25,672 bases of DNA from a virus, in the IMG/VR virus record IMGVR_UViG_3300020222_003330, positions 1 through 25,672 of that record, one strand, 5' to 3'. Below the pieces are notes generated by a model, which was not told where the DNA came from, made no database searches, and saw only the letters and a list, made by a program, of their open reading frames with translations. The translations under genes and the position numbers were made by a program. Shown here piece after piece: positions 4,883 through 25,672 of this stretch. Within the stretch, counting starts at the first letter, position 1; each line of letters opens with the position of its first letter.

Positions 4883-5758
4883 ATGGAATTCAAGAAAAAT
4901 TGTGGCAATACGCCGTTGATCAAGGTCGCCGATAAGTTGTACGCGAAGCTGGAAACATACAATCCGACCGGGTCCGTCAAAGATAGAATGATCTCGTATG
5001 TCGTCGATAAGGCGATTGAGGATGGAGTCCTGACCCCGGGAACGACGGTGTGTGAGGCGACGAGCGGCAATTCTGGAATATCTCTTGCCGCAGTTTCGGC
5101 TGCGATGGGGTCGAGGTGCGTCATCTTCATGCCGAGCAACATGTCGGAAGAGAGGAAGCAGATGATGCGCGTCTATGGTGCCGAGGTGGTGGAGGTTCCG
5201 CCCAGCGACTTTGAGGGCGCGATTCGAGCCCGAGACGAATTCTTGGTTGCCAACCCAGGTTCTTGGTCGCCGCGCCAATTCAGCAATGCAGACAATGTGG
5301 AGTGCCATCGGGAGGTGACTGGGCCTGAGATTGCGATGAGGTTGTGGTTGATGAACGAGCAATGGGCGGCTTTCGTCCACGGATCTGGTACTGGTGGTAC
5401 TATCGAGGGAATCAGGCAGTACACTCGATGTGCGGATGGTTTCATGAAGAATAACGAGATCTTGCCGAAGATTTGCATGGTCGTTCCCGCCGAATCTCCC
5501 CACGGTATCCAGGGTATTGGCGACGGCCGAGACTTCCTGGCAAAGCAGAGTGACATGGACGAGGTCATCGTTGTTTCTACCGAGGAGTCTATCGAGAGGG
5601 CGAAGCGATTTGCCAGGGAGACGGGCTTGTTGGTTGGAATAAGTTCTGGTGCAAATCTTGTTGCAGCCGAGCGGTGGATGTCCTGTAACAATCCTGCCGG
5701 CGTGGTTGTCACGATGTTGTGCGATCGCGGTGAAAGATATATGTCAGTATACGGCTGA
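4883..5758 (+). CDS. cysK: Cysteine synthase (PLP-dependent O-acetylserine sulfhydrylase family)
   Basis: This 291-aa protein is a little shorter than usual for the family (about 300-320). It makes cysteine from O-acetylserine and sulfide. The hallmarks are GNTPLIKV near the N-terminus, NPTGSVKDRM with Lys33 as the PLP Schiff-base lysine, EATSGNSG at 58-65 (substrate loop), GSGTGGTIEGI (phosphate-binding glycines), AESPHGIQGIGDG, and GISSGAN near the C-terminus. CysK and CysM subtypes cannot be separated by eye. The ATG start fits the family N-terminus. There is no adjacent Shine-Dalgarno, and the GAGGAGG further up is too far away. A Fe-S carrier gene 0.6 kb downstream suggests a shared sulfur/Fe-S theme. 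It is unusual cargo for a phage. Confidence 0.93.
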   Translation: MEFKKNCGNTPLIKVADKLYAKLETYNPTGSVKDRMISYVVDKAIEDGVLTPGTTVCEATSGNSGISLAAVSAAMGSRCVIFMPSNMSEERKQMMRVYGAEVVEVPPSDFEGAIRARDEFLVANPGSWSPRQFSNADNVECHREVTGPEIAMRLWLMNEQWAAFVHGSGTGGTIEGIRQYTRCADGFMKNNEILPKICMVVPAESPHGIQGIGDGRDFLAKQSDMDEVIVVSTEESIERAKRFARETGLLVGISSGANLVAAERWMSCNNPAGVVVTMLCDRGERYMSVYG

Positions 5759-6346: not shown

Positions 6347-6754
6347 GTGATATTGCGAAGTGTAGATATGAATGAACCCGTCGGTAGTTCAATAAGCGCT
6401 GATCGAGTCTATGATTTTTTTGTCTCGCCCACAGCTGCTCGCAAGATTAGGGAGGCGCTGATTAAGAGAAAGACACCCAAGGCCAGTCTTCGAGTCGGTG
6501 TTCGTGGTGGCGGGTGTTCTGGGTTTAGTTATGTCATTGAGTTTGCCGATGACCCGCCTCGGGAGGGGCGTGACCTTGTTTACATGGTACCTGTCGACGA
6601 TGGTGAAGTTCGTGTAATCTGTGATAGGAAGAGCATCATTTATCTATCGGGCACGACTCTTGAGTGGGAGAAGACCTTGAAGTGGGAGGGTTTTAAGTTC
6701 GTGAACCCGAACGCCACGGGTACATGTGGGTGTAATGAATCTTTCTCGATTTGA
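6347..6754 (+). CDS. A-type iron-sulfur cluster carrier (IscA/SufA/ErpA family)
   Basis: This 135-aa protein uses the GTG at 6347; the ATG at 6368 would give 128 aa and is equally credible. Conservation begins at FVSPTAARKI. The family signature is complete: GGGCSGFSY with Cys57, and TGTCGCNESF at the C-terminus with Cys127 and Cys129, the three cysteines that bind an Fe-S cluster. Such proteins accept clusters from a scaffold and pass them to apo-enzymes in the cytoplasm. No cysteine desulfurase or scaffold is nearby, so host machinery would have to supply clusters. Its closeness to cysteine synthase suggests a shared role, which is inference. Confidence 0.93.
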   Translation: MILRSVDMNEPVGSSISADRVYDFFVSPTAARKIREALIKRKTPKASLRVGVRGGGCSGFSYVIEFADDPPREGRDLVYMVPVDDGEVRVICDRKSIIYLSGTTLEWEKTLKWEGFKFVNPNATGTCGCNESFSI

Positions 6755-10837: not shown

Positions 10838-11467
10838 TCACATAGTGGGCAACCAGTGACCCATTCTATCCCGCTTTGAAATTAAATATGATTTTGAATA
10901 AATATTCGTGGAACACACGATGCTTTTTCTCTCAGCACGCACACCGCAATTTTTGATTGCTTCCAGCTTGAGAGGATTGTTGGTGAGCAGCTGTATGGAC
11001 GCCACACCCAAGTGCTTGAGCATCTCTGCAGCGGAGGTGTAGTCTCTCATGTCGTCGGGCAGACCTAAGCGTCGATTTGCGTCCACAGTGTCGTATCCCT
11101 CTGACTGTAGTTTGTAAGCTCGAATCTTATTAGCTAGACCGATTCCTCTGCCTTCCTGCCTGAGATACAATAACACGCCCTTACCTGCTTGAGAGATCGT
11201 CTGCTGCGCCTCAAGAAGCTGCTTGCGGCAGTCACACTTCAGCGAGCCGAACACCTCGCTCGTGAGGCACTCGGAGTGAACTCGGACAAGCACACCTTCT
11301 TCACCCTGGAGTTTACCCATCGTGAGTGCGATGTTATCTCGTGAGAGGCCGCAATCGAATCCTGTTTTGTTCTCATCTTCTTCCCAGCGGAACACGTGCA
11401 TGTTAAACGTTCCCCACTCTGTGGGAACAGGTGCAGAGGCTAATACTCGTAATCTATTTATTTCCAT
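10838..11467 (-). CDS. ribA: GTP cyclohydrolase II
   Basis: This 209-aa protein is of normal length for stand-alone RibA, which opens GTP to the first pyrimidine intermediate of riboflavin synthesis. All signatures are present: VRVHSECLTSEVFGSLKCDC with the three zinc-binding cysteines, LRQEGRGIGL, the YDTVDANRRLGLPDDMRDY region, LLTNNPLK, and a C-terminal KRDRMGHWL. It is the II type, not FolE, so it is not the entry point to queuosine or folate. GTAAT and ATTAC arms lie upstream of GATTCTATC next to the start codon. No other riboflavin gene is in the window, so it would boost the host pathway or feed another pterin-like or modified-nucleotide route. Confidence 0.95.
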   Translation of the reverse strand: MEINRLRVLASAPVPTEWGTFNMHVFRWEEDENKTGFDCGLSRDNIALTMGKLQGEEGVLVRVHSECLTSEVFGSLKCDCRKQLLEAQQTISQAGKGVLLYLRQEGRGIGLANKIRAYKLQSEGYDTVDANRRLGLPDDMRDYTSAAEMLKHLGVASIQLLTNNPLKLEAIKNCGVRAERKSIVCSTNIYSKSYLISKRDRMGHWLPTM

Positions 11468-12229: not shown

Positions 12230-12790
12230 ATGCCATTTGATCCCAATAGTCCCTTCTGCCAGTGGACTCGCAACGTCATCGATGAGTTTAAATCCCTGTC
12301 AGATGAAGACATACGACAACGATTAATTGAGAAATCCAACGAATTCGCGGTCCTCATGACCCACGTCGAGGGTGACTTCAACATCGGAACAGCGATTCGT
12401 TCAGCGAACTTTCACGGTGCAAGAGAGTTCTTCTATTACGGACGTCGGAAGATGGACCGCCGAGGTGCAGTTGGGACGTACAAGTATACCTCGGTCACAT
12501 TTCTAGAGTCTTTAGAAAAACTTTTAGAATTAAAGAGAAGTTATACCTTGATCGGTTTTGAGAATAACCTGCCGGGTACTGTAAATCTCCATGATTTTAA
12601 CTGGAAATTAGATAAACCGCCGTGTATTGTAGTGGGCGAAGAATGTAACGGAATTCCTGCAGAAATCCTCGACCTATGCGACTCTTTCGTAGAAATCCCA
12701 AACTTTGGATCAGTTCGCAGCATGAACGTCGGATCTGCGGCATCGATTGCAATGTACGACTACGTCAGTAAGAAAAGAAGAATGTCATGA
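12230..12790 (+). CDS. SpoU/TrmH-family RNA 2'-O-methyltransferase
   Basis: This 186-aa protein has the SPOUT fold and would use S-adenosylmethionine to methylate a ribose in tRNA or rRNA. The three SpoU motifs are visible: DFNIGTAIRSANFHGA (motif 1, catalytic Asn and Arg), IVVGEECNGIP (motif 2, normally GxExxG) and IPNFGSVRSMNVGSAASIAMYDY (motif 3, knotted region). No N-terminal RNA-binding extension is present beyond about 45 residues. It overlaps the next gene by ATGA (12787-12790). A target cannot be assigned by eye; phage or host tRNA is a reasonable guess given the tRNA genes in this genome. Confidence 0.92.
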   Translation: MPFDPNSPFCQWTRNVIDEFKSLSDEDIRQRLIEKSNEFAVLMTHVEGDFNIGTAIRSANFHGAREFFYYGRRKMDRRGAVGTYKYTSVTFLESLEKLLELKRSYTLIGFENNLPGTVNLHDFNWKLDKPPCIVVGEECNGIPAEILDLCDSFVEIPNFGSVRSMNVGSAASIAMYDYVSKKRRMS

Positions 12791-13452: not shown

Positions 13453-13557
13453 TCCAAGCGGTCAATGTCATTTGTAAAAAATGTCTAAGTTGTTTATTAC
13501 AAACGAATAAAAATAGACCAGCTGGTTTAACACCTCACAAACTGTTGAATAGTTATC

Positions 13558-13713
13558 TTGTCAGCGAACGACGTGTCGAAGTTGGACGTGTCCCTCACGA
13601 GTCGCCCCTCACGATTTAAGTTTGTTCGTGAGTTTGGTCCACCTCCGGATGCTGTGAGAGCAAGCATCCTGAAGGACCCAGAATTAATCGAAAAAACTCG
13701 AGGATTATCATAG
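13558..13713 (+). CDS. Possible small protein, 51 aa
   Basis: The roughly 400-base gap between the thioredoxin-like and tagged genes contains this TTG-started frame, preceded directly by AATAGTTATC, which resembles the late box. The product reads MSANDVSKLDVSLTSRPSRF, then KFVREFGPPPDAVRASI, then LKDPELIEKTRGLS: polar, with a plausible C-terminal helix. A GTG at 13573 is an alternative start. A longer minus-strand frame over the same bases (13527-13832) looks less protein-like. Nothing else is visible in the gap. Confidence 0.3.
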   Translation: MSANDVSKLDVSLTSRPSRFKFVREFGPPPDAVRASILKDPELIEKTRGLS

Positions 13714-13825
13714 ACCAAGTTTTTTCTAAATTGTCTGAAACAAACAGAGAAGTCATAGTCAAATAATAGATCGTGAACCCGGAACTTAAGTAAATTTGTA
13801 GCTTTATGCGCAAGGCAATATTTAC

Positions 13826-13851
13826 TAAGCATTGTTGCTTAAGAGTATTTT
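13826..13851 (+). promoter_or_regulatory. Late-type promoter candidate
   Basis: TAAGC-attgtt-GCTTA at 13826-13841 is a perfect 5-bp inverted repeat. TATTTT follows at 13846-13851, immediately before the ATG at 13852. Confidence 0.5.
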
Positions 13852-14304
13852 ATGAAAATTAAAAAAGATCAATTACAACAGCTAATTCGTGAAGAATACG
13901 TCAAAGTCGTATTTGAATCGCAGGGGCGTAATCTCACAGCTTCGCAAGCTAAAATTATAGCAGAGAATCTTAATGAGGGCTTCTTTGACGATATTATGAA
14001 ATCTTTCAAGTCGTCGGGCAAAGAAAGTAGTGATCAGCAAGGAAAAAACGAGGCTGCAGTAGTGAAAACAGAAGAGCAGCTTAAAAAAGAGATCATGATG
14101 ATTCAACAAAAAGCCAAAGACATGCTAGAGTCTAACGGCTTTGAGGGAGACGAAAACGATGTTGCCGTTCTTGGAATTGATCTATTCCGCGCAGCTGTAG
14201 AAGAAGTCATGTCAGCAAGTAAAATTGCGGGACCTGTTAAATCTGCAGGGAGACGTGGGATCGGTTCAGGTAGATACAGTCCGTTAGGGCGCATGGCTCG
14301 CTGA
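13852..14304 (+). CDS. Tagged, probably packaged protein with a second processing motif
   Basis: This 150-aa protein has a divergent tag, MKIKKDQLQQLIREEYVKVV. A second shared motif follows at about residues 40-52, ENLNEGFFDDIMKSFKSS, which parallels ILREGFFDSLASFFRSK in the protein at 20343. LNE/G and LRE/G both fit the T4-type prohead protease rule, so the mature protein could begin GFFD. The remainder is a charged helix, then DVAVLGIDLFRAAVEEV, and a basic Gly/Arg tail (SAGRRGIGSGRYSPLGRMAR). The gene ends at a strong terminator. Packaging is inferred; function is unknown. Confidence 0.75.
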   Translation: MKIKKDQLQQLIREEYVKVVFESQGRNLTASQAKIIAENLNEGFFDDIMKSFKSSGKESSDQQGKNEAAVVKTEEQLKKEIMMIQQKAKDMLESNGFEGDENDVAVLGIDLFRAAVEEVMSASKIAGPVKSAGRRGIGSGRYSPLGRMAR

Positions 14305-14324
14305 TTAAATTAAAATAAAATATG

Positions 14325-14360
14325 GGGGATGAATTACGAATGTAAATTCATCCCCTTTTA
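14325..14360 (+). terminator. Rho-independent terminator
   Basis: GGGGATGAATT (14325-14335) pairs perfectly with AATTCATCCCC (14345-14355) around a 9-nt loop, followed by TTTTATTA. It closes the tagged gene at 13852. The downstream TATAAAT box for the next gene begins a few bases later. Confidence 0.85.
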
Positions 14361-14375
14361 TTATATAAATTAGAC

Positions 14376-14849
14376 ATGACCGAAGACGAAGATAAAATTC
14401 TCTGTCAAAAATATCCAAAGATATTCAAGAACCGCGACGGATCTATCATGGAGACATGCATGGCATGGGGGTTTGAGTGCGACTCAGGCTGGTTTGATGT
14501 GCTCGACATTCTGTGTCACGAGATTCAAGGTTACATCGACTGGAAGTCTCGTGGGCTCTCTGAAGAAGAGAGAGAGGAGCTGCAGGTAGTCGCAGACCAA
14601 GTAAAAGAGAAATTCGGCACTCTTCGCTTCTACTACAGTGGGGGTGACGACGTGATCGAAGGAATGGTGAGAATGGCTGAGTCAATGACTTACAGAACAT
14701 GCGAAGCTTGTGGCTGTCCCGGCGAAAAACGCGGCGGAGGATGGATCAAGGTCCTCTGCGACAAATGCGACGAGGAACAAAAAAGAAAATTGGGCGTACC
14801 CCGGATCGGCGAACCAGGAAGCAATGCCCCACGCATCAGCGAGATGTGA
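14376..14849 (+). CDS. Conserved zinc-ribbon protein of phages and bacteria
   Basis: This 157-aa protein has an N-terminal half (KYPKIF, MAWGFECDSGWFDVLDILC) and a middle (VKEKFGTLRFYYSGGDDVIEG) that match a widespread uncharacterised family I have seen in phage genomes. The C-terminal third holds a zinc ribbon: CEACGCPGEKRGGGW, then LCDKC. It may act in regulation or nucleic-acid binding, but no function is established that I can name. The start is ATG with TATATAAATTAGAC directly upstream and no Shine-Dalgarno. It converges with the UV endonuclease gene 2 nt away. Confidence 0.8.
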   Translation: MTEDEDKILCQKYPKIFKNRDGSIMETCMAWGFECDSGWFDVLDILCHEIQGYIDWKSRGLSEEEREELQVVADQVKEKFGTLRFYYSGGDDVIEGMVRMAESMTYRTCEACGCPGEKRGGGWIKVLCDKCDEEQKRKLGVPRIGEPGSNAPRISEM

Positions 14850-14851
14850 GA

Positions 14852-15781
14852 TTAGACGATGGACAGACCGTGTTCTTTCACGGCCAGTTCGATAGCCCAA
14901 TTCTTCATCTTGAACTCCATCTCTACATCTACCTTGCTGAGCACTGCACGTTGTTCCTTGGGAACATAGTGGACCCAGTCTGAGTGGGCTCGCCGTTTAG
15001 AAGCCGGTGCCTCTGCAGGAATTTCAGGACTTGTATTTGATAGATGCTGCAATGGCTTGATGCCGCGCCAAGTGCTAGACGCGAGCTCGATGACTTCATT
15101 GAGGTTTAAGCCACCTGTTCGAAACGTATGATGGTGGACGTCGAGCACGATGGGAACACCCGTTGCGTCACACACGGGCTTTAGATCTGCAGCACTGTAA
15201 GCATTCTCGCAGTTCTCGAGTGTGAGTCTTGATCGAATGTGATCTGGCAGTCTATTGATCTCTCGAATGAGATTATCGGGTCGACCTCCTTTACCTCCGT
15301 GGATGTTGATCGCGTAGAAGGGCGATCTGTCTAGATCCATTGCTTCCATGATCCACGCGTGCGTCTCAAGGTCACCCGCCGCGTTCTTCACGACGCTAGA
15401 GGAGTCTGATGAAAGAACGACAAACTGACCAGGATGCATAGTGATGCGTACACCTTCGCGTTTAGCTAGGTCACCAAACTTCCAGTATCGCTCACGAAGC
15501 TTGTCGTTGTCCCACCAGTGTCGAGGAACCTTGTCAGCGAGCGGAATCAGATTAGAAGAAACACGAAAGCACTTGTAACCATCGCTAACAACTCGACGGA
15601 ATGCGGTGAGGAGATTATCAGCATTGCTGAGGTAAACATGTTTGATTTCATCTTCTGAATACTTTCCCTGGTTCCATCGACCCAGCTGCAGGATGCGCTC
15701 GTCGAAGATATTTTTCTGTTTTTCGATGCCTCGAGGAGATCGCTCGAGCTCGACGTATTGACAACAAAGTCCTAAAGCCAT
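14852..15781 (-). CDS. uvsE: UV DNA damage endonuclease (UVDE/UvsE family)
   Basis: This 309-aa protein is the usual length for the bacterial enzyme, a TIM-barrel nuclease that nicks 5' of pyrimidine dimers and other lesions using divalent metals. The signatures are FRVSSNLIPLA, ITMHPGQFVVLSS (metal-binding His), INIHGGKGG, LTLENCENAYS (Glu/Asn) and VPIVLDVHHH (Asp and His ligands). The C-terminal SDWVHY region is also typical. The upstream sequence has TATACAGTACAGTACAATAC before the ATG and no Shine-Dalgarno. It joins other repair genes in this window (glycosylase, PolX-like, FEN). It probably allows repair of phage DNA without host factors. Confidence 0.94.
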   Translation of the reverse strand: MALGLCCQYVELERSPRGIEKQKNIFDERILQLGRWNQGKYSEDEIKHVYLSNADNLLTAFRRVVSDGYKCFRVSSNLIPLADKVPRHWWDNDKLRERYWKFGDLAKREGVRITMHPGQFVVLSSDSSSVVKNAAGDLETHAWIMEAMDLDRSPFYAINIHGGKGGRPDNLIREINRLPDHIRSRLTLENCENAYSAADLKPVCDATGVPIVLDVHHHTFRTGGLNLNEVIELASSTWRGIKPLQHLSNTSPEIPAEAPASKRRAHSDWVHYVPKEQRAVLSKVDVEMEFKMKNWAIELAVKEHGLSIV

Positions 15782-15817
15782 GTATTGTACTGTACTGTAT
15801 AGTCGTGTGAACTTGCA

Positions 15818-16252
15818 TCAATAAATCTTCTGTATACCCAAGTGACCTCCCCTGAGTAGAGGTAGGATGCTGAGCTGAATCGTATGAGAACCCCAGCACA
15901 TCAGCGCCATTGTGCCAGGATCGATTAAAGACAACCACGGATTGCCATCTTCTGATCCAGCAGCGACCACGAGCCGAATGAAAGCAGACTTCTTGTTGCC
16001 TCGCCACCACACCCTGACTAAAGATCCAGGTTGAAAATCTTGAGGATAGAATTTTTTCTTCGACACCCAGCCTTCCTCCTCTTCTTCTTTAATCTTTAAT
16101 TTCAGGCACAGTTTGCAACACTGCGCCTCCCACAAGTGCTTTAGATCATCTCCGCAACTGATGCAGTACATCGCAGTTGTGTGCGTGAGTAACTCGGCGT
16201 CGTTTGGCAAGTTGTCGGGATGAAAAGAATTTTCCGACGAAGAATTAATCAT
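15818..16252 (-). CDS. Zinc-ribbon protein with SH3-like C-terminal domain
   Basis: This 144-aa protein has CISCGDDLKHLWEAQCCKLC at about residues 30-49, a four-cysteine metal site. An acidic KEEEEEGW linker leads to a beta-rich region that starts FQPGSLVRVWWRGN and continues FIRLVVAAG, NPWLSLIDPGTM. The PGSLV start of that region resembles GSLVVP and GDLVLP of the small SH3-like family, so it may be a zinc ribbon fused to the same barrel. Nucleic-acid binding is plausible. It is divergent from the small lipoprotein gene at 16270. Confidence 0.65.
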   Translation of the reverse strand: MINSSSENSFHPDNLPNDAELLTHTTAMYCISCGDDLKHLWEAQCCKLCLKLKIKEEEEEGWVSKKKFYPQDFQPGSLVRVWWRGNKKSAFIRLVVAAGSEDGNPWLSLIDPGTMALMCWGSHTIQLSILPLLRGGHLGIQKIY

Positions 16253-16269
16253 GAATCGGTGAATTAAAT

Positions 16270-16485
16270 ATGCACAAATTCGAAGCCAGCTGTAATATTG
16301 CTTTCATGAGGCAGCTATTATTTTTTTGCATTGCTCACACAGGTTGCTATCATGAGTGGGATTTCCCTACAGCACCTCCAAAACATCATTACAACAATTG
16401 CGTGAGAGTTGTCAATGGGAGATATTTGAATAATGACTCTTGCGAAGTGAGAGATTCTGAATCTCAAGCTGTGCTTCCTCCATGA
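16270..16485 (+). CDS. Small predicted lipoprotein
   Basis: This is a 71-aa protein from the ATG at 16270; an internal ATG at 16306 gives a cleaner lipoprotein signal, MRQLLFFCIAHTGC. The mature part would be short, Cys-rich and proline-rich (YHEWDFPTAPPKHHYNNC, NNDSCEVRDSES). Two later cysteines could form a disulfide. No family is recognised. The gene ends 11 nt before the tRNA cluster. Confidence 0.5.
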   Translation: MHKFEASCNIAFMRQLLFFCIAHTGCYHEWDFPTAPPKHHYNNCVRVVNGRYLNNDSCEVRDSESQAVLPP

Positions 16486-16496
16486 AAGTAGATTTC

Positions 16497-16572
16497 GCCA
16501 CCTTAGCTCAGTTGGCAGAGCATCTCACTTGTAATGAGAATGTCGCCCGCTCGGTTCGGGCAGGTGGCTCCA
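16497..16572 (+). tRNA. tRNA-Thr (UGU)
   Basis: A full 76-nt cloverleaf with encoded CCA. The acceptor is GCCACCT/AGGTGGC, the D-arm GCTCAGTTGGCAGAGC, and the anticodon arm TCTCA-CTTGTAA-TGAGA with anticodon TGT. The variable loop has 5 nt, and the T-stem is GCCCG/CGGGC. The T-loop is CTCGGTT, not TTCRANY: T54 and A58 are replaced by C54 and G58, while T55, C56 and purine 57 are kept. The rest is canonical, so it is probably functional. Confidence 0.9.
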
Positions 16573-16574
16573 GC

Positions 16575-16660
16575 GGGATGATGCCCGAGAGATTAAAGAG
16601 GAATGGCTGCAAACCATTTGACTCAAGACTACGGCAGTTCGAATCTGTCCCATCCCACCA
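16575..16660 (+). tRNA. Class II (Tyr-type) tRNA with GCA (Cys) anticodon
   Basis: An 86-nt tRNA with encoded CCA, 2 nt after tRNA-Thr. The anticodon arm is AATGG-CTGCAAA-CCATT, so the anticodon is GCA (Cys). The long variable region (TGACTCAAGACTAC), the CCCGAG...TTAAAG D-arm, the G1-C72 pair and discriminator A73 are those of bacterial tRNA-Tyr; normal bacterial tRNA-Cys is class I with U73. Deviations: A7-C66 mismatch, D-stem C11-A24 mismatch, and GA in place of the GG of the D-loop. The T-arm GGCAG-TTCGAAT-CTGTC is normal. It may be a retargeted or decaying Tyr tRNA. Confidence 0.8.
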
Positions 16661-16683
16661 AGGGTCATTATATTAGTTAGATA

Positions 16684-16730
16684 GCCACTCTGGTGAAATA
16701 GACACGGCACAAAGCTGTATCTTTTCTAGA
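16684..16730 (+). pseudogene. Possible tRNA-Leu 5' remnant
   Basis: GCCACTCTGGTGAAAT followed by AGACACGGCAC looks like the acceptor and D-arm start of a leucine tRNA, but part of the D-loop is missing. No matching T-arm or GAGTGGC 3' acceptor follows. The rest of 16661-16857 holds only the promoter element before the next gene. Confidence 0.25.
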
Positions 16731-16820
16731 AATCATAATAAACCAATTACATCTTTTTGTCAATGATGGCTACGATGAATCTCATGATCTCTGAACACAC
16801 AGAGTTTCTTAACAATCTCT

Positions 16821-16855
16821 TTGTGCAAAAAATCGTCACAAGATGTTAGTATAAA
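16821..16855 (+). promoter_or_regulatory. Promoter candidate, TGTTAGTATAAA class
   Basis: TTGTG at 16821-16825 and CACAA at 16837-16841 form an inverted repeat. TGTTAGTATAAA follows at 16844-16855, identical to the one at 12215, 2 nt before the ATG at 16858. Confidence 0.5.
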
Positions 16856-16857
16856 TC

Positions 16858-17442
16858 ATGGGCATCGGAAAGATCGACCTCTATGAAGCGCAAATTATTG
16901 CGGACAAAGTTCGTCAGTACATCTCGCCAGCAATGACTCGGGTTGAGGTAGCTGGCTCAATTCGTCGACAAAAAGACGTTGTTGGCGACATCGAGATCTG
17001 TGGCATCCCCGACGATCGAGAAAAACTCATTAAATTGTTAGGTGATGTTGGTCAGCACATTAAACCAGGCGTTCCTGGCGTAGTTTTGTGGAAACCGAAA
17101 ACCTCTGCAAAATACCTCAGAGTGCGCCTCGAGGAAGGCATAAACCTTGATGTTTTCTTAGCATCGCCTCAAAACTGGGGTGGTCTCTTTATGATGCGAA
17201 CGGGCAGCGGCGCTTCGCCCGACGGTAATCCGTTTCATGGTTTTGTGCCGGCAATTTTTCAGCGCTGGAAGAAGTTGTCCGGGGGTGGTCGCATGACTGA
17301 CTGTATGCCAACTATGCCCACAGGTGAACAGCTATGGATCCCTGAGGAACAGGACTTCTTTGATCTACTCGAGATGAATTTTGTGCCACCTGAGCAACGC
17401 ATCACTAAGGGTGCAATTAAAAAGCACACAAAACATTCTTGA
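16858..17442 (+). CDS. DNA polymerase X-like nucleotidyltransferase
   Basis: This 194-aa protein carries the Pol beta palm signature VEVAGSIRRQKDVVGDIEICG. Gly33-Ser34 begin the nucleotide-binding loop, Asp44 and Glu46 take the place of the usual D-x-D pair, and INLDVF supplies the third acidic residue (Asp98). RTGS and the C-terminal MPTGEQLWIPEEQDFFDLL with PPEQR resemble the thumb of family X enzymes. The N-terminal helix-hairpin-helix domain found in full-length PolX is absent, leaving a palm/thumb core. It probably adds nucleotides in gap repair or end processing. The D-x-E variant should be checked for activity. Confidence 0.85.
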   Translation: MGIGKIDLYEAQIIADKVRQYISPAMTRVEVAGSIRRQKDVVGDIEICGIPDDREKLIKLLGDVGQHIKPGVPGVVLWKPKTSAKYLRVRLEEGINLDVFLASPQNWGGLFMMRTGSGASPDGNPFHGFVPAIFQRWKKLSGGGRMTDCMPTMPTGEQLWIPEEQDFFDLLEMNFVPPEQRITKGAIKKHTKHS

Positions 17443-17468
17443 AATAATGATCACATCATAATTTAAAT

Positions 17469-17744
17469 GTGGTAATAGAAAATTTAACAGTTGGGTCTTT
17501 AGTTGTGCCCAGGATTTCTGTGCAATTATTCTCTTCGCTGTTTAAGGGCTCAGCTGACGGTTCTGTTTTTTCACCTGAATTGGGTTTTTACGTTTGGGAC
17601 TCTCGAGAGGTGGCAATTGTGGTCGAAGTGTTTGAAATGCCCTTCGACAGAAAAAAACTCTATAAAGTTTTGCTAAGCCGAGGCGCCGCGGGTTGGGTCT
17701 GGGACAACAATCTGCTCGCCGTCTATAAGGAAAACAAAACGTGA
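17469..17744 (+). CDS. Small SH3-like family protein
   Basis: This 91-aa protein has a GTG start directly after CATAATTTAAAT. It shows the family scheme: LTVGSLVVPRIS, FYVWDSREVAIVVEVFEMPF, DRKKLYKVLLSRGAAGW and VWDNNLLAVY. The GW pair and the strand order match the proteins at 8740, 10352 and 19443. It overlaps the following J-domain gene by GTGA at 17741-17744, so both are made together; an association with the J-domain protein is possible but unproven. Confidence 0.75.
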   Translation: MVIENLTVGSLVVPRISVQLFSSLFKGSADGSVFSPELGFYVWDSREVAIVVEVFEMPFDRKKLYKVLLSRGAAGWVWDNNLLAVYKENKT

Positions 17745-18322
17745 GATGTCAAAACATCTGCAGAAAGATTCGAAGTCTTGAATACGCAGTGCTGCATTTA
17801 AAGTTAGAGATTGAAGAAGTCAATGACGAAATGAATGAGTATACTAGTAGTTTCATGCAAAGTCTGCACAAAGTTGCAGATTTCAGCACTGCCCCTGAAA
17901 CAAAAACAACAATTCATTCAAAAAATGAATTCTTTCAGTTAGCAGACAAGCCGACACAGCCAGAAGAACTTAAAAAATTGTGGAAAAAAATAGCTGCAGT
18001 AACACACCCAGATAAAACAGGCAATAATCAGAGATTAACGAGTCTATATAGACGTGCAGCAGAGGCAATAAAGGCATCTTCTGCTCATGAATTAGTGCAG
18101 ATTGCGATAGAACTTAAGCTTAAGTCGCCTGAACTCAATAACGAAATCACGTTATCTACATTAGCAGAATCAAAATCAAACCTTTCAAAAAAACTCTTTG
18201 ATCTTGAAAATTGTGTTCTGATAAAATGGGGCAGGGCACAAACTGACGAAGAAAAAAAGATCATCATAGACCATTACATTTCTTCAAAAGGTTACAGCTA
18301 CCGTGTCGGCAACAACACGTGA
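17741..18322 (+). CDS. J-domain (DnaJ-like) protein with N-terminal coiled coil
   Basis: This 193-aa protein has a GTG start that overlaps the previous stop. Residues 8-45 form a heptad-like helix (IRSLEYAVLHLKLEIEEVND). Residues 70-130 match a J-domain core: PEELKKLWKKIAAVTHPDKTG with the diagnostic His89-Pro90-Asp91, then LTSLYRRAAEAIKASS. J-domains stimulate the ATPase of Hsp70 (DnaK). The early part of a normal J-domain (helix I) is degenerate, and the zinc-finger region of DnaJ is absent. It probably redirects host DnaK for phage replication or assembly, by analogy with other phages that exploit DnaK. Confidence 0.8.
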   Translation: MRCQNICRKIRSLEYAVLHLKLEIEEVNDEMNEYTSSFMQSLHKVADFSTAPETKTTIHSKNEFFQLADKPTQPEELKKLWKKIAAVTHPDKTGNNQRLTSLYRRAAEAIKASSAHELVQIAIELKLKSPELNNEITLSTLAESKSNLSKKLFDLENCVLIKWGRAQTDEEKKIIIDHYISSKGYSYRVGNNT

Positions 18323-18342
18323 ATGCGTATTAGAGTAAAAAC

Positions 18343-19176
18343 ATGACTATTCTCTGTGTAGATTTCATGAATCAATGTCACCGGGCTCGAAGTGGTTTTA
18401 AGCTCGGCCCGGCGCCTGTGGTGTTTAACTTCTTTCGACAATTTAAAGCACTTGTTGATGAGTTTAAACCAAACCGTGTCTATGTTGTTCTCGAGGGCCG
18501 CCCCGTAAAGCGCCATGAAGCACTTTCTGCGTACAAAGCCAATAGAGTCATTTCAGAAGATGATCCGCGACGCAGCGAACTCTTGAAATTCTTTGCGCAG
18601 AAGGACAGTATTGTAGAGCTTCTTGTAAAATACTTTCCCGTCTCTGTGGTGCGCCATCCAACTTCTGAGTGCGATGACACAATCGCGAATCTTGTTCGCA
18701 GGTCCTCGACAGCAGTTCCTTGGGTAATCGCTTCATCAGATACTGACTTCATTCAGCTTCTTCAAGAGCGTGACAATTTGAAGCTCTACAATCCTGTTCG
18801 TAAAGCGTATGTAGATGCACCAGACTATCCATACGTGACCTGGAAGGCTCTTCGTGGAGATGCTACCGACAACGTTCCCGGTATTCCAGGCGTCGGTGAC
18901 AAGACGGCAGAGAAATTGGCTTCAGACCCAGATCTTTTGTCTGAATTCCTCAGCAAACCCGAGGTTGCTCCACTATTTGAGAGGAACTATGGACTCATCA
19001 ATTTCATGGAATGGTCAGACGAGGAAAGAGAAATGATGACATCTTCTGCACCCACCAAGGACTGGGATACTGTCAAAACAGTGTTTGAAAACTATGGTTT
19101 TGGATCGATTGTAAAAGATGAATCTTGGCGCAAATTCACTCAGACGTTCGACGCTTTGTGGGGATCAAATGTCTGA
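18343..19176 (+). CDS. 5'-3' exonuclease / flap endonuclease (FEN, RNase H-like of phages)
   Basis: This 277-aa protein has the Asp-rich sites of the FEN/Pol I 5'-nuclease family: ILCVDFMN (first Asp), YVVLEGRPVKRHEALSAYKANR (basic arch region), CDDTIANL, VIASSDTDFIQLL, and ALRGDATDNVPGIPGVGDK with its helix-hairpin-helix and K-binding loop. Length is typical of phage enzymes such as T4 RNase H and T5 D15. It would remove RNA primers and flaps during phage replication. The ATG follows GTATTAGAGTAAAAAC, a relative of the TGTTAGTATAAA element. Its 3' end overlaps the convergent small gene by 12 nt. Confidence 0.93.
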   Translation: MTILCVDFMNQCHRARSGFKLGPAPVVFNFFRQFKALVDEFKPNRVYVVLEGRPVKRHEALSAYKANRVISEDDPRRSELLKFFAQKDSIVELLVKYFPVSVVRHPTSECDDTIANLVRRSSTAVPWVIASSDTDFIQLLQERDNLKLYNPVRKAYVDAPDYPYVTWKALRGDATDNVPGIPGVGDKTAEKLASDPDLLSEFLSKPEVAPLFERNYGLINFMEWSDEEREMMTSSAPTKDWDTVKTVFENYGFGSIVKDESWRKFTQTFDALWGSNV

Positions 19177-19443
19177 AATTGACCGTATCCAACCTGCCCC
19201 AATCCATCCTGACTGACCCGAGGATGCTAAAACACGATATGCGCCCTGGGACCATTCATCCGAAGTTGCTTTACCAAAGTCAAGTGTCATCTCTCTAAAT
19301 TCTAAAATTAGCAGGATGTCATCAGGCTGTGCACAGCCGTGGGGCTCATCTATGTCACACTCAAGAGACGACCATAAGATAAGCTGATCAGCATCGATCA
19401 TGCTTATAGCTAATTGTCCTGGATTCAGTGTCTCTTGCAGCAT
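19165..19443 (-). CDS. Small SH3-like family protein (minus strand)
   Basis: This 92-aa protein matches the family: LNPGQLAISM near the start, DDILLILEFREM, GAYRVLASSGQSGW and GAGWIRSI at the end. The central part has an extra acidic and Cys-containing loop (ECDIDEPHGCAQPDD). The minus-strand upstream sequence reads CTAA-cat-TTTAG, then GATATAATAAAAAA and the ATG, so the transcript would be nearly leaderless. It is the only canonical member on the minus strand. Confidence 0.7.
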   Translation of the reverse strand: MLQETLNPGQLAISMIDADQLILWSSLECDIDEPHGCAQPDDILLILEFREMTLDFGKATSDEWSQGAYRVLASSGQSGWIGAGWIRSISDI

Positions 19444-19481
19444 TTTTTTTATTATATCACTAAAATGTTAGAATTGTTCAC

Positions 19482-20057
19482 ATGGTATATTTAGAGAAGA
19501 GAGGTAAAATGTCTATCAAAGATGAGTATGAATCTTTATTGGATGAAGTAAAGTCTGAATTCTCAGATTTTGAGATACTAGTCAAGAATCGATCTGTTCT
19601 CATGAAGTTTATTGATGCTGCATTGCATATTATCACTTTCGGTCAGATGAAGAACTTCATGACAGGATTCATCACCACCATGGGAAACAAAGTCTACGTG
19701 CCAGATTCGTGGGAGATGTCTTCAATTACCAATAAAATTGAGATTATTCGACACGAACGTGTACACATGCGTCAGGCAAAAAAATATGGACGCTTTCTAT
19801 TCTCTTTCTTGTATCTAGTCGTTCCCTTTCCGGTTGGCGTTGCATATTACAGAAAGAAATTTGAGCAGGAAGCTTACGAGGAAAGCCTTAAAGCGCTATA
19901 CGAATATCACGGAGAAAAGATTTTTACGCCGAGATTGAAGGAAGGCATGCTCGCTCACTTTATCACAGAGCAATATTTTTGGATGTGGCCGTGGCGGAAA
20001 GACCTAGAAAAATGGTATGACGCTGCTGTAGAAAAAGCAAAGTCACGACAATCCTAG
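19482..20057 (+). CDS. HExxH putative metallopeptidase with membrane segment
   Basis: This 191-aa protein uses ATG 19482, preceded by TGTTAGAATTGTTCAC; the ATG at 19509 with AGAGAGG upstream is an alternative giving 182 aa. IIRHERVHMRQAKKYG contains HERVH, a zinc-peptidase motif. Downstream, YYRKKFEQEAYEES could supply a glutamate third ligand in gluzincin fashion. Two hydrophobic stretches (ALHIITFGQMKNFMTGFI and FLFSFLYLVVPFPVGVAYY) suggest membrane association. Related proteins occur in bacteria as uncharacterised HExxH proteins. Substrate is unknown. Unlike the other two predicted proteases in the window it has no lipoprotein signal. Confidence 0.7.
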   Translation: MVYLEKRGKMSIKDEYESLLDEVKSEFSDFEILVKNRSVLMKFIDAALHIITFGQMKNFMTGFITTMGNKVYVPDSWEMSSITNKIEIIRHERVHMRQAKKYGRFLFSFLYLVVPFPVGVAYYRKKFEQEAYEESLKALYEYHGEKIFTPRLKEGMLAHFITEQYFWMWPWRKDLEKWYDAAVEKAKSRQS

Positions 20058-20294
20058 TTTATCTTTTGCGATGCACTTAGGACAGGGGATTCTACCCCAT
20101 TGAATGTTGTCTGAATTCATCATTCGGTGGTATGGATTTCCTATAGACTTTAGCCAGAGTTTAAGAGTTGTAGGTGATGTTTGAGAAAAATCTGACAAAC
20201 GACCCCACAATAGAGAATAGAACGCAACGCAACATATCGGAAATTTTTCCCTTTTCCCTCTATTAATGTCGTAAAAAATACTTCTCAAAAACAT
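20043..20294 (-). CDS. Small protein with Cys-x-x-Cys C-terminus
   Basis: This 83-aa protein fills the minus strand between two plus-strand genes. It contains CCVAFYSLLWGRLSDFS, LKLWLKSIGNPYHRMM and RIPCPKC near the end. CPKC could be half of a zinc site. Support for expression is the divergent palindrome TTAGAAATTCTAA at 20311-20323, followed on this strand by TAATAAATAATTTGTCCAC before the ATG. It overlaps the upstream metallopeptidase gene by 15 nt at the convergent end. No family is recognised; moderately uncertain. Confidence 0.45.
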   Translation of the reverse strand: MFLRSIFYDINRGKREKFPICCVAFYSLLWGRLSDFSQTSPTTLKLWLKSIGNPYHRMMNSDNIQWGRIPCPKCIAKDKLGLS

Positions 20295-20310
20295 GTGGAC
20301 AAATTATTTA

Positions 20311-20338
20311 TTAGAAATTCTAACTATAATATATAATA
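20311..20338. promoter_or_regulatory. Divergent promoter candidate around a 13-bp palindrome
   Basis: TTAGAA-a-TTCTAA at 20311-20323 is a perfect inverted repeat. To the right TATAATATATAATA leads to the ATG at 20343; to the left (minus strand) TAAATAAT leads to the ATG at 20294. One repeat thus serves two divergent start-proximal boxes. Confidence 0.5.
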
Positions 20339-20342
20339 CAAA

Positions 20343-20669
20343 ATGAACGAGAGCAAGATTCTTAGAGAAGGGTTTTTTGATAGTTTAGCTTCATTTTTTA
20401 GGAGCAAACCTGACGCTTCTAAGGCAGCACAAATGATTGCTGATACTTGGATTTCTGAGAAAGAAATAGATTTGGGAGAAGATCTGCCCGACGAAGTCAA
20501 AGATCAAGTTTATCAATTTACTGCTGCTCGCTACGATAGAGCTTTAAATGCCTATAAGCGCGAAGACGACCCAGCTAGAAAAGCTGTTATGGTCTTGGTA
20601 AAGCTTCTAGATAAAAAAATGGGCCCGATGATCGACAACATGTTTTATGATTCTAGCAGCTTCGATTGA
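20343..20669 (+). CDS. Probable packaged protein with LREGFFD processing motif
   Basis: This 108-aa protein has an N-terminus (MNESKILREGFFDSLASFF) with a very short leader and then the EGFFD motif shared with the tagged protein at 13852. LRE/G fits the T4-type prohead protease rule, and cleavage would remove nine residues. The remainder is helical and polar (DASKAAQMIADTW, DEVKDQVYQFTAARYDRALNAY) with no known domain. I class it with the tagged proteins on the strength of the second motif and the inverted-repeat/box promoter; this is inference. Confidence 0.65.
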   Translation: MNESKILREGFFDSLASFFRSKPDASKAAQMIADTWISEKEIDLGEDLPDEVKDQVYQFTAARYDRALNAYKREDDPARKAVMVLVKLLDKKMGPMIDNMFYDSSSFD

Positions 20670-20703
20670 TACTAAGTAAAATTTGTTTGTAGGATTACTT
20701 CTC

Positions 20704-21753
20704 ATGAGAAGATATCCGGGTTTCCTTAACGAACTACAACAGCAAATAGAGGGATTGCATCCTGAAATTCTTGAAAGAATTTCTCGATATGGTGGCCTAG
20801 ACGTCCAAGATCTAATTTCTTTGATCTTAGAACCCAAAGATCACTCTGTTGACTGCCCGGAAACTGTCGATCCAGGCGAAATATTTCAGCATGTTGAGCT
20901 TGAGTCTTATGAAGCTTTAGGTAGAGAGCTAATTGACAAGAACTCAGTTGCGCTATGCATACTAGCAGGCGGCGCCGGCACCAGAATAGGTGGCTCAAAG
21001 TGCATGCTTAATTTATTTGAGGGTGAGACACTTCTTTCACATAAGATTAGAAAAAACTCGCATGTAAAAAATATCTGGATTATAGTTACTGAGTCGCTGT
21101 CTAATATTGTTCAAGATCATTTAGAAAATATTAGATTAATGCGAGACGGGATTGAGTTGGTACTTCAATACGAGTCTGTGCGCTTAACACCAGACAATCA
21201 ACTTTACACAAATAAAGACGGCCCAAGTTTGTACCCTTGCGGACACGGTGATGTCATTCCTGCGCTAGACAGCTCTGGGCTTTTAAAGAAATTCACTGCT
21301 TCTGGTGGTAGGCACGTCGTCATAGTTAACGTTGACAATGTTTCTGCAGACATCGACGCTGCTATCTTGGGTTTGCATCATGCGAATAATGTTCCCGTCA
21401 CGTGCGAAGTTGTGAGAAAATCTGAAAATGACAAGGGTGGCATGTTATGCAAACACAGCGGCGTAAATCAGATTGTCGAAGAATTTAGAATGACTCCTGA
21501 ATCAGACGTTACTCAGTTTCAGCTGATGAACACCAATACGATGATAGTTAAGTCTGATCTTGATTTCAGCATGATAGATTGGCATTGGCACAGAGTCAAG
21601 AAAAATCTTGATGGAAGTTTGGTCATACAGCATGAAAGGCTTTTGCAGCAGCTCACAGAGCATTTTAAGACACAGTATGTCGAGGTTCAACGGGACAGAA
21701 GATTTACGCCGATAAAGAGCGCGTCAGATCTTGATAAGATCAAGCAGGCATGA
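20704..21753 (+). CDS. UDP-sugar pyrophosphorylase (UDPGP family)
   Basis: This 349-aa protein uses ATG 20704, which has AGGA about 10 nt upstream; a TTG at 20683 adds seven residues. The nucleotide-binding signature LAGGAGTRIGG (87-97) with Lys99 is followed by YPCGHGDVIPALDSSGLL and VVIVNVDNVSADID, as in eukaryotic-type UDP-glucose and UDP-N-acetylglucosamine pyrophosphorylases. It would make a UDP-sugar from UTP and a sugar-1-phosphate. Which sugar cannot be told by eye. The protein is shorter than eukaryotic members and lacks their C-terminal beta-helix. It overlaps the DNA glycosylase gene by ATGA, raising a link to DNA modification. Confidence 0.85.
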   Translation: MRRYPGFLNELQQQIEGLHPEILERISRYGGLDVQDLISLILEPKDHSVDCPETVDPGEIFQHVELESYEALGRELIDKNSVALCILAGGAGTRIGGSKCMLNLFEGETLLSHKIRKNSHVKNIWIIVTESLSNIVQDHLENIRLMRDGIELVLQYESVRLTPDNQLYTNKDGPSLYPCGHGDVIPALDSSGLLKKFTASGGRHVVIVNVDNVSADIDAAILGLHHANNVPVTCEVVRKSENDKGGMLCKHSGVNQIVEEFRMTPESDVTQFQLMNTNTMIVKSDLDFSMIDWHWHRVKKNLDGSLVIQHERLLQQLTEHFKTQYVEVQRDRRFTPIKSASDLDKIKQA

Positions 21754-22166
21754 TCCCACCCAGATCGCCCTATTGTCTCATACAAGAAGACTTGTGGCCC
21801 GATAAGTGGAAGATGCTTGTGTCCTGTGTGCTGCTCAACAGGACTGCACGAAAACAAGTTGAGAAAATTCTACCTCAGCTCTTTGCTCTGTGTCCAACAG
21901 CCAAGGACATGGCTGAGTGCAATATGTCTTCTTTGACTTCTGTCATAGCACCGCTAGGTTTTAAAAATAGAAGGGCAATAACACTCATCAAATTATCTAA
22001 GAGTTTTCTAGAGCCAAACTGGAAGCACGCTAGTGAACTTCCTGGAGTTGGTGAATACGCAGCAGCAGTTTGGGATATATTCGTGCTCAACAAGATGCCG
22101 TCAAGCGCACCCAACGATCACGCCTTGACGTGGTATTGGCATTGGAGACAACAGAATGACAATTAA
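21750..22166 (+). CDS. HhH-GPD DNA glycosylase, MBD4-like
   Basis: This 138-aa protein, short for the superfamily, keeps the helix-hairpin-helix LPGVGEYAAAVWDIF (97-111) and the catalytic aspartate in PNDHALTWYWHW (Asp123). The Lys found in the hairpin of bifunctional EndoIII is Tyr here, so it should be a monofunctional glycosylase. The layout VLLNRTARKQVEKIL, LGFKNRRA, LPGVGxY and DHxLxxYxxW is close to the catalytic domain of MBD4, a T:G mismatch and modified-pyrimidine glycosylase. It has no Fe-S cluster loop. It is coupled to the UDP-sugar pyrophosphorylase gene at the start and overlaps the next gene by 11 nt. Confidence 0.88.
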   Translation: MIPPRSPYCLIQEDLWPDKWKMLVSCVLLNRTARKQVEKILPQLFALCPTAKDMAECNMSSLTSVIAPLGFKNRRAITLIKLSKSFLEPNWKHASELPGVGEYAAAVWDIFVLNKMPSSAPNDHALTWYWHWRQQNDN

Positions 22167-22461
22167 GAGAAAAGAAGCAGTCAAAGAAAAGAAAGAGAGG
22201 GCACCAAGAAAGCCGCGACCCAGAAAAATTGCAGCTCAAATTCTACAAGATGCAGTAGTCGAGGGGAAGTGGACTGTGTCAGTGGGTCAAGATTTTCTTG
22301 TATCTAAGAAAGTCAGCGGAAAACAAACGCAGTCTATTTGCACTTTTAAAGAGATGATTAACGAGAAAACGGTCAATTCATGGGACAAAACGCTCGAGCG
22401 ATGGTATGCATTCAATATTGACGACCTAGAAAAGTTTGGTATTGTCGTGAAAAAATTCTAA
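22156..22461 (+). CDS. Small basic protein of unknown function
   Basis: This 101-aa protein has a very basic N-terminus (MTIKRKEAVKEKKERAPRKP), probably disordered and able to bind nucleic acid. A small alpha/beta part follows: AAQILQDAVVEGKWTVSVGQ, SKKVSGKQTQSICTFKEM and LERWYAFNIDDLEKFGI. No family is recognised. The 11-nt overlap with the glycosylase gene implies joint translation. It is not one of the tagged proteins. Confidence 0.6.
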   Translation: MTIKRKEAVKEKKERAPRKPRPRKIAAQILQDAVVEGKWTVSVGQDFLVSKKVSGKQTQSICTFKEMINEKTVNSWDKTLERWYAFNIDDLEKFGIVVKKF

Positions 22462-23159
22462 TTTTTTAAGAAATTTTCTATCACGCTTGCGGGGATGAAG
22501 AAACTAATATTCGGTGCAGAAACTATCATCCACGAGCACAAACCCACAAGCCTACCCTGCTCATCGAATGCACCACCACCAGAATTACCCATCCAGACAG
22601 GTGCAGATACTTGTATCGAACCAACTCTGTTTTCGTTGATTGTAGATTTTGTGCTTGCTGAAATTAAACCCTCTATGTAAGACCACCACATTCCTGACGT
22701 GTGACCTATTATGTGAAGCCGCATTCCAACCCAAGGGTCATCTTTGCTTATTTGAATTGGTTCTTTAGAAATTTTATTGGGCACTAAAAAGAGTGCTAAG
22801 TCATCTCTTTCGCTAATTTTTATTAAAGAAGCTAATTTTAAAGTGCCATCGCTCAGTGTATTCCCGGCTTCAAGATCCTCTTTCGTCATATAAAAAGACA
22901 ATAATTTATTATTGACGCAGTGTGCTGCTGTGAGGAATTTTTCGCCGTCTATCCATACGCCACTGCAATAAGGCTTTAATTTGCCAGAACCATCATCTGT
23001 CACTAGTGCAACTGTTCTGCTTTCAAGATCTCTAATAAAGTTTTTTCTGCCTTCATCTTGTGAAGAAGTTTTTATGTTGGGTCGGGCGCATACGCACCCC
23101 ATAAGAGCAATTGCAAAAGATACTAAAATAATACGCACTTTATTGCTGCATGTGTTCAT
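22458..23159 (-). CDS. Trypsin-like serine protease, lipoprotein
   Basis: This 233-aa protein begins with a lipoprotein signal (VRIILVSFAIALMGC, Cys22). The chymotrypsin-fold triad is visible: LTAAHCV (His80), ERDDLALF (Asp119 or Asp120) and GNSGGGAF (Ser193). The C-terminal SFFIPASVIENFL is typical of the DegP/HtrA or V8-like trypsin_2 group, but there is no PDZ domain. It would act on periplasmic or surface proteins after lipid anchoring. TTTA-atttatc-TAAA and AAGAAG lie upstream of the ATG. It is the second predicted envelope-anchored protease in the window, after the matrixin-like one. Confidence 0.88.
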   Translation of the reverse strand: MNTCSNKVRIILVSFAIALMGCVCARPNIKTSSQDEGRKNFIRDLESRTVALVTDDGSGKLKPYCSGVWIDGEKFLTAAHCVNNKLLSFYMTKEDLEAGNTLSDGTLKLASLIKISERDDLALFLVPNKISKEPIQISKDDPWVGMRLHIIGHTSGMWWSYIEGLISASTKSTINENRVGSIQVSAPVWMGNSGGGAFDEQGRLVGLCSWMIVSAPNISFFIPASVIENFLKN

Positions 23160-23262
23160 GTGTTACTTCTTTAAGATAAATTAAATTTGACAACATAGAT
23201 ACGTATGCTTAATTGTACGTCGAATCAAACAAATAAAATAAATTAACTATGATTTTTAGAAC

Positions 23263-23370
23263 ATGGGCACAAAAGGTTTGATAGTTAGTATTCTACTACT
23301 GACACCATGGACATTTGTGATTCCAGGCGTCGTTTATGCATATAGACATTTAAAAAATAAAAACAAATAA
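23263..23370 (+). CDS. Small single-pass membrane protein, 35 aa
   Basis: A 35-residue frame starts at ATG 23263 with CTATGATTTTTAGAAC upstream and ends exactly where a strong terminator hairpin begins. The product is one hydrophobic helix (LIVSILLLTPWTFVIPGVVY) with a Lys-rich tail (AYRHLKNKNKNK-like). Its fit between a promoter-like box and a terminator makes it convincing despite its size. It could be a membrane toxin, a holin-like peptide or a superinfection factor; none is proven. Confidence 0.6.
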   Translation: MGTKGLIVSILLLTPWTFVIPGVVYAYRHLKNKNK

Positions 23371-23400
23371 GGCCGGTAAGAAGAAAACTACCGGCCTTTA
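23371..23400. terminator. Bidirectional rho-independent terminator
   Basis: GGCCGGTA (23371-23378) pairs with TACCGGCC (23389-23396) around AGAAGAAAAC, followed by TTTATTTT on the plus strand. A T-rich stretch follows on the minus strand as well. It ends both the 35-aa gene and the convergent homing-endonuclease gene. Confidence 0.85.
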
Positions 23401-23406
23401 TTTTAG

Positions 23407-24353: not shown

Positions 24354-25672
24354 TCATGAATCCCTCCACAAATTATTTGCGGCAAAGATTAATATCTCTT
24401 CTGCGGATTCCGGAGAATACGAGTAAGTTTTTATCATAGTTTCAACCATATCACTGTACTTCTTCTGTTGATCATCATTCCTAGTTTTTGACTTAGTCAC
24501 TATTCTTGCCATTGTCCGCACAGAAGAAATCAAATAAGATTCAATTGCATTCTTAAGTGGTTCATAAGTAGAGTAAATAACTTTTTCGCCTCGCCTCATT
24601 TTTGCAAACATGTATGCTGTGACGTCAGATCGGAAGCCGTCCTTTGCAGAGCCAGTAACACCGATTTGTTCTTCAATGGAAATCATAAATTGTTCATCAG
24701 GCTTTCGTTCTTCTTTTGTGACTTTGTCTTTTAGCTTCGTTCTCGTGGTGTGAGCTTCTGCGTTATCAAGATAAGACTCAAACAACGATTGTGCTTGCTC
24801 CTCGTAAGCTGAGATGAATGCTTTTGCGATCTCATTCTCGAGAATCTTTAGATATTCTTCGCGAATTGTCTTCTGGAGGAGTTCAAGGCACTTTGACTTA
24901 AACTGTTCATCCACAAGCTGTTCTTTTACCATCTTCGTCAATGAATCCATGACGGAGATCGGTGTAATCATATTCTTATCAGATGCTGTGAGAGCATTAT
25001 CGAGAGCCTTAGTTATGAAACGAGTTGAGATGCCGTCCATGCCCTCATGCTTCGCCTCTTCGCGTAGGTCTTTGATGTCGACCTTGCGCACTCGCCCTTT
25101 TTCAAGAACATCTTCGCCGTTGTAGATCTTCATCTTCGTGAGGATATCACATTTGGCAGAATCTTTAAGACGACTCATCACCGAGAACATTGAAGCAATC
25201 TTTAAGGTATGCGGTGCGATGTGCGATGTGAATTCAGATTTACCCAACATCTTCTCGTAGATTTTTATCTCCTGATTGAGTTCAAGACAGTAAGGTACAG
25301 ATATCTTCACAATGCGATCCATGATGGCTTCATTTGTGTGTTCTGACTTAAATCTGTTCCATTCGGCCTCATTGCAGTGAGCGAGGATGACACCGTCGAA
25401 GTGCAACATGTCCGACTTGCCAGGTGAAGGAACCCTCTTCTCTTGGGTTGCCGTGATGATGGTGTGGAGGAACTCGATCTCGTTCTTGAAGACCTCGACG
25501 AGCTCGACGACGCCCCGGTTGCCCACGTTGAACGCACCGTTTAGTGAGAGTGAGCGTGGATCATCCTCGGCAAACTTGTCGAGCTTCGAGATGTCGACTG
25601 ACCCGATGAGGACCGAAACGTCTTGGGAGTTTGCATCCATCGGAGGCACAGAAGCGACGCCCCGACGGCCAC
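24354..25672 (-). CDS. prkA: PrkA serine protein kinase, C-terminal part (cut by right edge)
   Basis: The frame stays open to the window edge (GRRGVASVPPMDANSQD across 25672-25620), so the N-terminal AAA+ portion is missing; about 438 residues are visible out of roughly 640 in the family. The text from VLIGSVDISKL through GVVELVEVFKNEIEFLHTII and DGVILAHCNEAEWNRF is the hallmark of PrkA/YeaG. This protein pairs an AAA+ core with a kinase-like C-terminal domain and responds to stress and starvation in bacteria. In bacteria it usually neighbours YeaH and SpoVR genes, which may lie beyond the edge. It is an unusual phage gene and could alter host stress state. A homing endonuclease follows it. 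Confidence 0.92.
   Translation of the reverse strand, partial: GRRGVASVPPMDANSQDVSVLIGSVDISKLDKFAEDDPRSLSLNGAFNVGNRGVVELVEVFKNEIEFLHTIITATQEKRVPSPGKSDMLHFDGVILAHCNEAEWNRFKSEHTNEAIMDRIVKISVPYCLELNQEIKIYEKMLGKSEFTSHIAPHTLKIASMFSVMSRLKDSAKCDILTKMKIYNGEDVLEKGRVRKVDIKDLREEAKHEGMDGISTRFITKALDNALTASDKNMITPISVMDSLTKMVKEQLVDEQFKSKCLELLQKTIREEYLKILENEIAKAFISAYEEQAQSLFESYLDNAEAHTTRTKLKDKVTKEERKPDEQFMISIEEQIGVTGSAKDGFRSDVTAYMFAKMRRGEKVIYSTYEPLKNAIESYLISSVRTMARIVTKSKTRNDDQQKKYSDMVETMIKTYSYSPESAEEILIFAANNLWRDS

Follow-up and report, generated by a model that had tools for sequence, protein, structure and literature searches.

The tRNA gene at positions 16575-16660, which ARAGORN labels tRNA-Cys(gca), is very probably a large-phage tRNA-Tyr gene that is falling apart through ordinary decay and gives cysteine codons no new reading. 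Judged from its sequence, the gene is best classed among tRNA-Tyr pseudogenes. The window, meaning the whole stretch of DNA that was analysed, is a 25,672-base virus record handled here as a fragment, and ARAGORN found 2 tRNA genes in it. The features of the tRNA region are as follows.

16497-16572, plus strand: tRNA-Thr(UGU) with a non-consensus T-loop, CTCGGTT (ARAGORN; Rfam, 58.9 bits)
16575-16660, plus strand: class II tRNA gene, tRNA-Tyr-derived, with anticodon GCA, A73 and an encoded CCA, structurally degraded (ARAGORN, Rfam, alignment to contig L197, tree)
16581, plus strand: A7, unpaired against C66 (16650); G7-C66 in L197 (alignment, cloverleaf)
16585-16599, plus strand: D-stem with broken C11·A24 (16585/16599) and GA at 16591-16592 instead of the D-loop GG (alignment, cloverleaf)
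16609-16611, plus strand: anticodon GCA; 16610 is tRNA position 35, C here and T in all Tyr relatives (ARAGORN, L197 alignment)
16620-16629, plus strand: variable arm GAC-TCAA-GAC, its stem unpaired with A·A at mid-stem; GAC-ATT-GTC in L197 (alignment, cloverleaf)
16661-16707, plus strand: tRNA-Ile relic with a degraded 5' half and an approximate 3' limit (about 36 nt aligned to L197:668-703 at 86%)

The architecture described in the first-pass annotation is all present in the ARAGORN call and cloverleaf drawing: a class II tRNA with GCA, G1-C72, A73, A7·C66, C11·A24 and a D-loop with GA in place of GG (the loop reads GAGAGATTAAA). The acceptor and T-stem are drawn as 7/5, and the anticodon arm, the T arm and the encoded CCA remain sound. 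The broken variable stem is a further defect, absent from that annotation's list. Rfam model RF00005 matches positions 16575-16657 at 35.8 bits (gathering score 29). Single-strand folding energy separated the window tRNA poorly from shuffled sequences (z = −0.65), with z = −1.05 for the intact tRNA-Tyr of L197, and these energies were given no weight as evidence.

The tyrosine ancestry proposed for the tRNA body is borne out by two lines of comparison. Among approximately 1,400 tRNAs gathered from the loci compared, and with the anticodon masked, the nearest neighbour of the window tRNA is the intact tRNA-Tyr(GTA) of L197 (score 51.0), and the runner-up, at 29.5, is also a Tyr tRNA. In a FastTree phylogeny of the long tRNAs, likewise with anticodons masked, the window tRNA, its twin on contig L003 and the L197 gene are joined with support of 1.0, and this group is nested within the Tyr clade with support of 0.96. 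The window tRNA matches the L197 tRNA-Tyr exactly in its anticodon stem and T arm, and since this closest homolog has GTA within an identical anticodon stem, the proposed single T-to-C change at position 35 also holds. Compared with bacterial tRNA-Tyr as a class, the gene has the descent, the G1-C72 pair and A73, but its anticodon, in both the window and L003, is GCA and not GUA.

L197 is a 4.6-kb contig bearing a tRNA cluster. One of its genes is 79% identical to a gene lying about 1.8 kb from the tRNA cluster of genome G006, with counterparts in G005 and G012 as well, and by this gene content L197 can be taken to be a related large-phage lineage. G005 and G006, which the gene downstream in the window links to it as relatives, both carry an ordinary tRNA-Tyr(GTA); the other relatives of the window have no tRNA at the equivalent place. 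A direct blastn search of the window tRNA against named phages returned no match.

Relative to L197, the window tRNA has lost the 7-66 and 11-24 pairs, the D-loop GG, the variable stem and U35. Its Rfam score is 19 bits lower than the 54.7 bits of the L197 gene, and the L003 twin scores 34.1. Other Tyr tRNAs scored between 44.7 and 60.6 bits, and the window tRNA also falls below all eight class II GCA tRNAs scored elsewhere (L046, 59.0; L074, 58.4; L125, 57.7; L175, 60.7; L192, 55.7; L187, 54.8; L174, 53.4; L189, 50.5). One or two mismatches are tolerable in real tRNAs. The combination seen here, at least 2 stem mismatches with neither a D-loop GG nor a variable stem, occurs in 0 of 308 other long tRNAs (79 nt or longer), and the GG is kept in 50/50 of the Tyr(GTA) genes among the long tRNAs compared. 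A score well below those of intact relatives together with broken stems is the mark of a tRNA pseudogene, and the window tRNA has both. Against decay, ARAGORN still calls the gene, its Rfam score clears the threshold, its anticodon and T arms are sound, it encodes CCA, and it is common to 2 contigs approximately 3% apart. Acceptor pairs 3 and 5 differ from L197 on both sides and are still paired, so the gene was once under selection and worked as a tRNA during part of its divergence.

The neighbouring tRNA genes are also degraded. The L003 copy of tRNA-Thr has a 1-nt insertion in the T arm and scores 39.6 bits, versus 58.9 in the window, and the Ile relic is called by neither ARAGORN nor Rfam. 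The corresponding Ile-like sequence of L197 is itself uncalled as a tRNA. A tRNA-Leu remnant had been considered for the sequence after 16660 and was rejected, the L197 alignment showing tRNA-Ile. As a separate observation, tRNA-Thr(UGU) genes of class II size, with a long variable arm, occur in phage contigs (L197:247-335; L033, from the G005 cluster; L124, L125, L128 and L058), and these carry G1-C72, C2-G71 and either U73 or A73.

Contig L003 (IMGVR_UViG_3300020193_002094) and the window share about 97% identity over 11.9 kb. Between the 2 contigs, the two tRNA genes differ by 3 substitutions and 1 indel in 162 nt, and the local flank (14376-17442) by 16 substitutions and 0 indels in 2,865 nt. 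The tRNA block thus shows no sign of protection from change, as far as such small numbers (four changes, two contigs only) can indicate. Over positions 13454-23406 the divergence from L003 is patchy, from about 0.6% at 14376-17442 to 11-20% in the intergenic stretches 13600-13851 and 23160-23406, a pattern that suggests recombination.

The first-pass annotation had left open whether the departures from tRNA-Tyr mark decay or a new identity. The structural defects, the degraded neighbours and, as far as so few changes can tell, the lack of a purifying-selection signal between the two phages favour decay. A new identity, or misreading of cysteine codons, fares poorly: A73 is wrong for CysRS, U35 is lost, TGT and TGC codons still align with cysteine and no TyrRS or CysRS was found in the relatives, many of which are fragments. 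Bacterial tyrosylation relies on A73 and U35, the latter being critical, and cysteinylation relies on U73 and GCA (PMC9976931). In these terms the window tRNA holds half of each set, A73 without U35 and GCA without U73. The search proposed earlier for a phage-encoded synthetase gave no match to TyrRS (PF00579) or CysRS (PF01406) in 14 related records, many of them fragments.

That this is instead a true class II tRNA-Cys, which the host CysRS charges and which supplements cysteine decoding, is a very unlikely reading. The GCA anticodon and the presence of U73 class II tRNA-Cys genes in many viral contigs would fit it, as would the fact that cysteine codons are not rare in the window (127 of 7,246). 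Class II tRNAs with GCA also occur elsewhere: a length-restricted pattern for them hit 49 stretches in viruses and 19 in genomes (the pattern searches required CTGCAAA, and these case counts are not a frequency). Among the 36 distinct long GCA tRNAs called, 29 have the U73 needed by CysRS (PMC9976931) while 7, including the window tRNA and its twin, have A73 (L189 was counted with A73 on inspection, its drawn ends sitting one base off). None of the 29 U73 genes lies in the Tyr clade that holds the window tRNA, so the clear grouping with class II tRNA-Cys that had been named as a refuting outcome is not seen; both the tree and the nearest-neighbour search place the gene with Tyr, and its combination of defects is absent from the U73 group. 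Of the features of class II tRNA-Cys, it shares GCA, but has neither U73 nor kinship with the U73 genes.

That the locus yields a tRNA of Tyr type which decodes cysteine codons with low-level Tyr charging, or an uncharged decoy with a cysteine anticodon, is equally doubtful; if it were true, low-level Tyr charging would mean Cys-to-Tyr missense during infection. A working missense tRNA, placing tyrosine at UGU and UGC after low-level charging by TyrRS, or serving codons that are partly recoded, is hard to credit. It would explain why the class II body of bacterial tRNA-Tyr is retained along with G1-C72, A73 and G34, but the fold is damaged and the U35 critical for tyrosylation (PMC9976931) is lost. 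In addition, TGT/TGC codons of the window's genes align with cysteine in 137 of 214 cells, conserved cysteine pairs included, and with tyrosine in 1 of 214 (relatives excluding L003), so cysteine codons have not been reassigned.

A non-decoding role, as an anticodon-nuclease decoy or as a regulatory or tRNA-fragment RNA that has been retained although its fold is broken, has a similarly slim chance of being right. No part of the gene is better preserved than the anticodon arm, whose stem is identical to that of L197, but nothing positive points to such a role, the tRNA block changes at or above the flank rate (four changes only), and the Thr and Ile neighbours are decaying alongside. The last alternative, that position 35 of an intact tRNA-Tyr was misread in sequencing or misassembled (assembly error had been named earlier as a refuter), has next to no chance, because the separate and approximately 3% diverged IMG/VR record L003 carries GCA with all the other defects of the window tRNA, plus a C10-to-T change, even if 3 bacterial MAGs with an otherwise intact GCA tRNA-Tyr beside tRNA-Thr (L174:3344-3428, L187:67-151 and L189:2916-2999) possibly contain such errors. 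Those 3 genes may be MAG errors or real variants; by pattern, no class II GTA tRNA was found in the genomes of L174, L187 or L189.

Decay of a tRNA-Tyr gene would have proceeded as follows. The ancestor would be an intact Tyr(GUA) gene like the one that the related L197 cluster still has. On losing its function, this gene would have gathered substitutions, U35 to C among them, so that the anticodon became GCA through drift. Probably no usable tRNA is expressed from it, or the RNA folds badly and is badly charged; with TyrRS deprived of the U35 determinant and CysRS of U73, cysteine codons would be read by the host tRNA-Cys. Automated callers give a tRNA-Tyr in this state of decay the label tRNA-Cys, and claims of recoding, or of cysteine supplementation by phages, could be inflated in this way. 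The U73 class II tRNA-Cys genes spread through phage contigs are a more promising lead than 16575-16660.

Elsewhere in the window, at least 6 proteins (gene starts at 260, 992, 3354, 4449, 8200 and 13852) share an N-terminal motif resembling MKIRLxELRRxIRE, which may be a targeting tag or a propeptide that is cleaved off. The phage fragment also holds many metabolic-type genes, of which seven regions are listed.

4883-5758: PALP enzyme
6347-6754: Fe-S biosynthesis protein
10838-11467: GTP cyclohydrolase II
12230-12790: SpoU methylase
14852-15781: UvdE
20683-21753: UDPGP family
24354-25649: PrkA kinase

Several known systems resemble the window tRNA in part. The selC* tRNA-Cys likewise combines a long variable arm with a cysteine anticodon, but it has an 8/4 acceptor/T-stem and U73 (reviewed in PMC7609411), versus 7/5 and A73 here, which places the window tRNA outside that family. 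The U73 class II tRNA-Cys(GCA) of phages and some bacteria (such as L047, L125 and L175) share GCA and the long variable arm; they differ in U73, in their mostly sound stems and in lying outside the clade of the window tRNA. Such genes were seen in viral contigs L047, L057, L061, L068, L125, L170 and others and in bacterial MAGs L175, L180 and L192, most of them with a 7/5 fold unlike that of the reviewed selC* tRNA-Cys (PMC7609411). In RtT RNA (RF00391), the tRNA-Tyr-like 5' part found in the enterobacterial tRNA-Tyr operon is, like the window gene, a Tyr-derived relic with a CTGCAAA loop, but its 3' part is the RtT element and it lies on a chromosome, next to intact tRNA-Tyr genes. Fusions of this kind, a Tyr-like 5' part with CTGCAAA joined to RtT RNA, were observed at L183:6083-6223 and at L178:4743-4882 and 5042-5181 (all minus strand); they adjoin intact tRNA-Tyr in Citrobacter, Kosakonia and relatives, the GCA-like loop being common to several genera. 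With bacterial and phage tRNA-Tyr(GUA) the window tRNA shares G1-C72, A73, G34, the CCC on the 5' side of the D-stem and a variable region of 13-14 nt, and differs in its GCA anticodon, broken 7-66 and 11-24 pairs, missing D-loop GG and unpaired variable stem. Finally, the tRNA pseudogenes of decaying phage tRNA clusters have the same low model score, scattered mismatches and degraded neighbours; compared with these, the window tRNA is still recognised at full length and has a readable sense anticodon.
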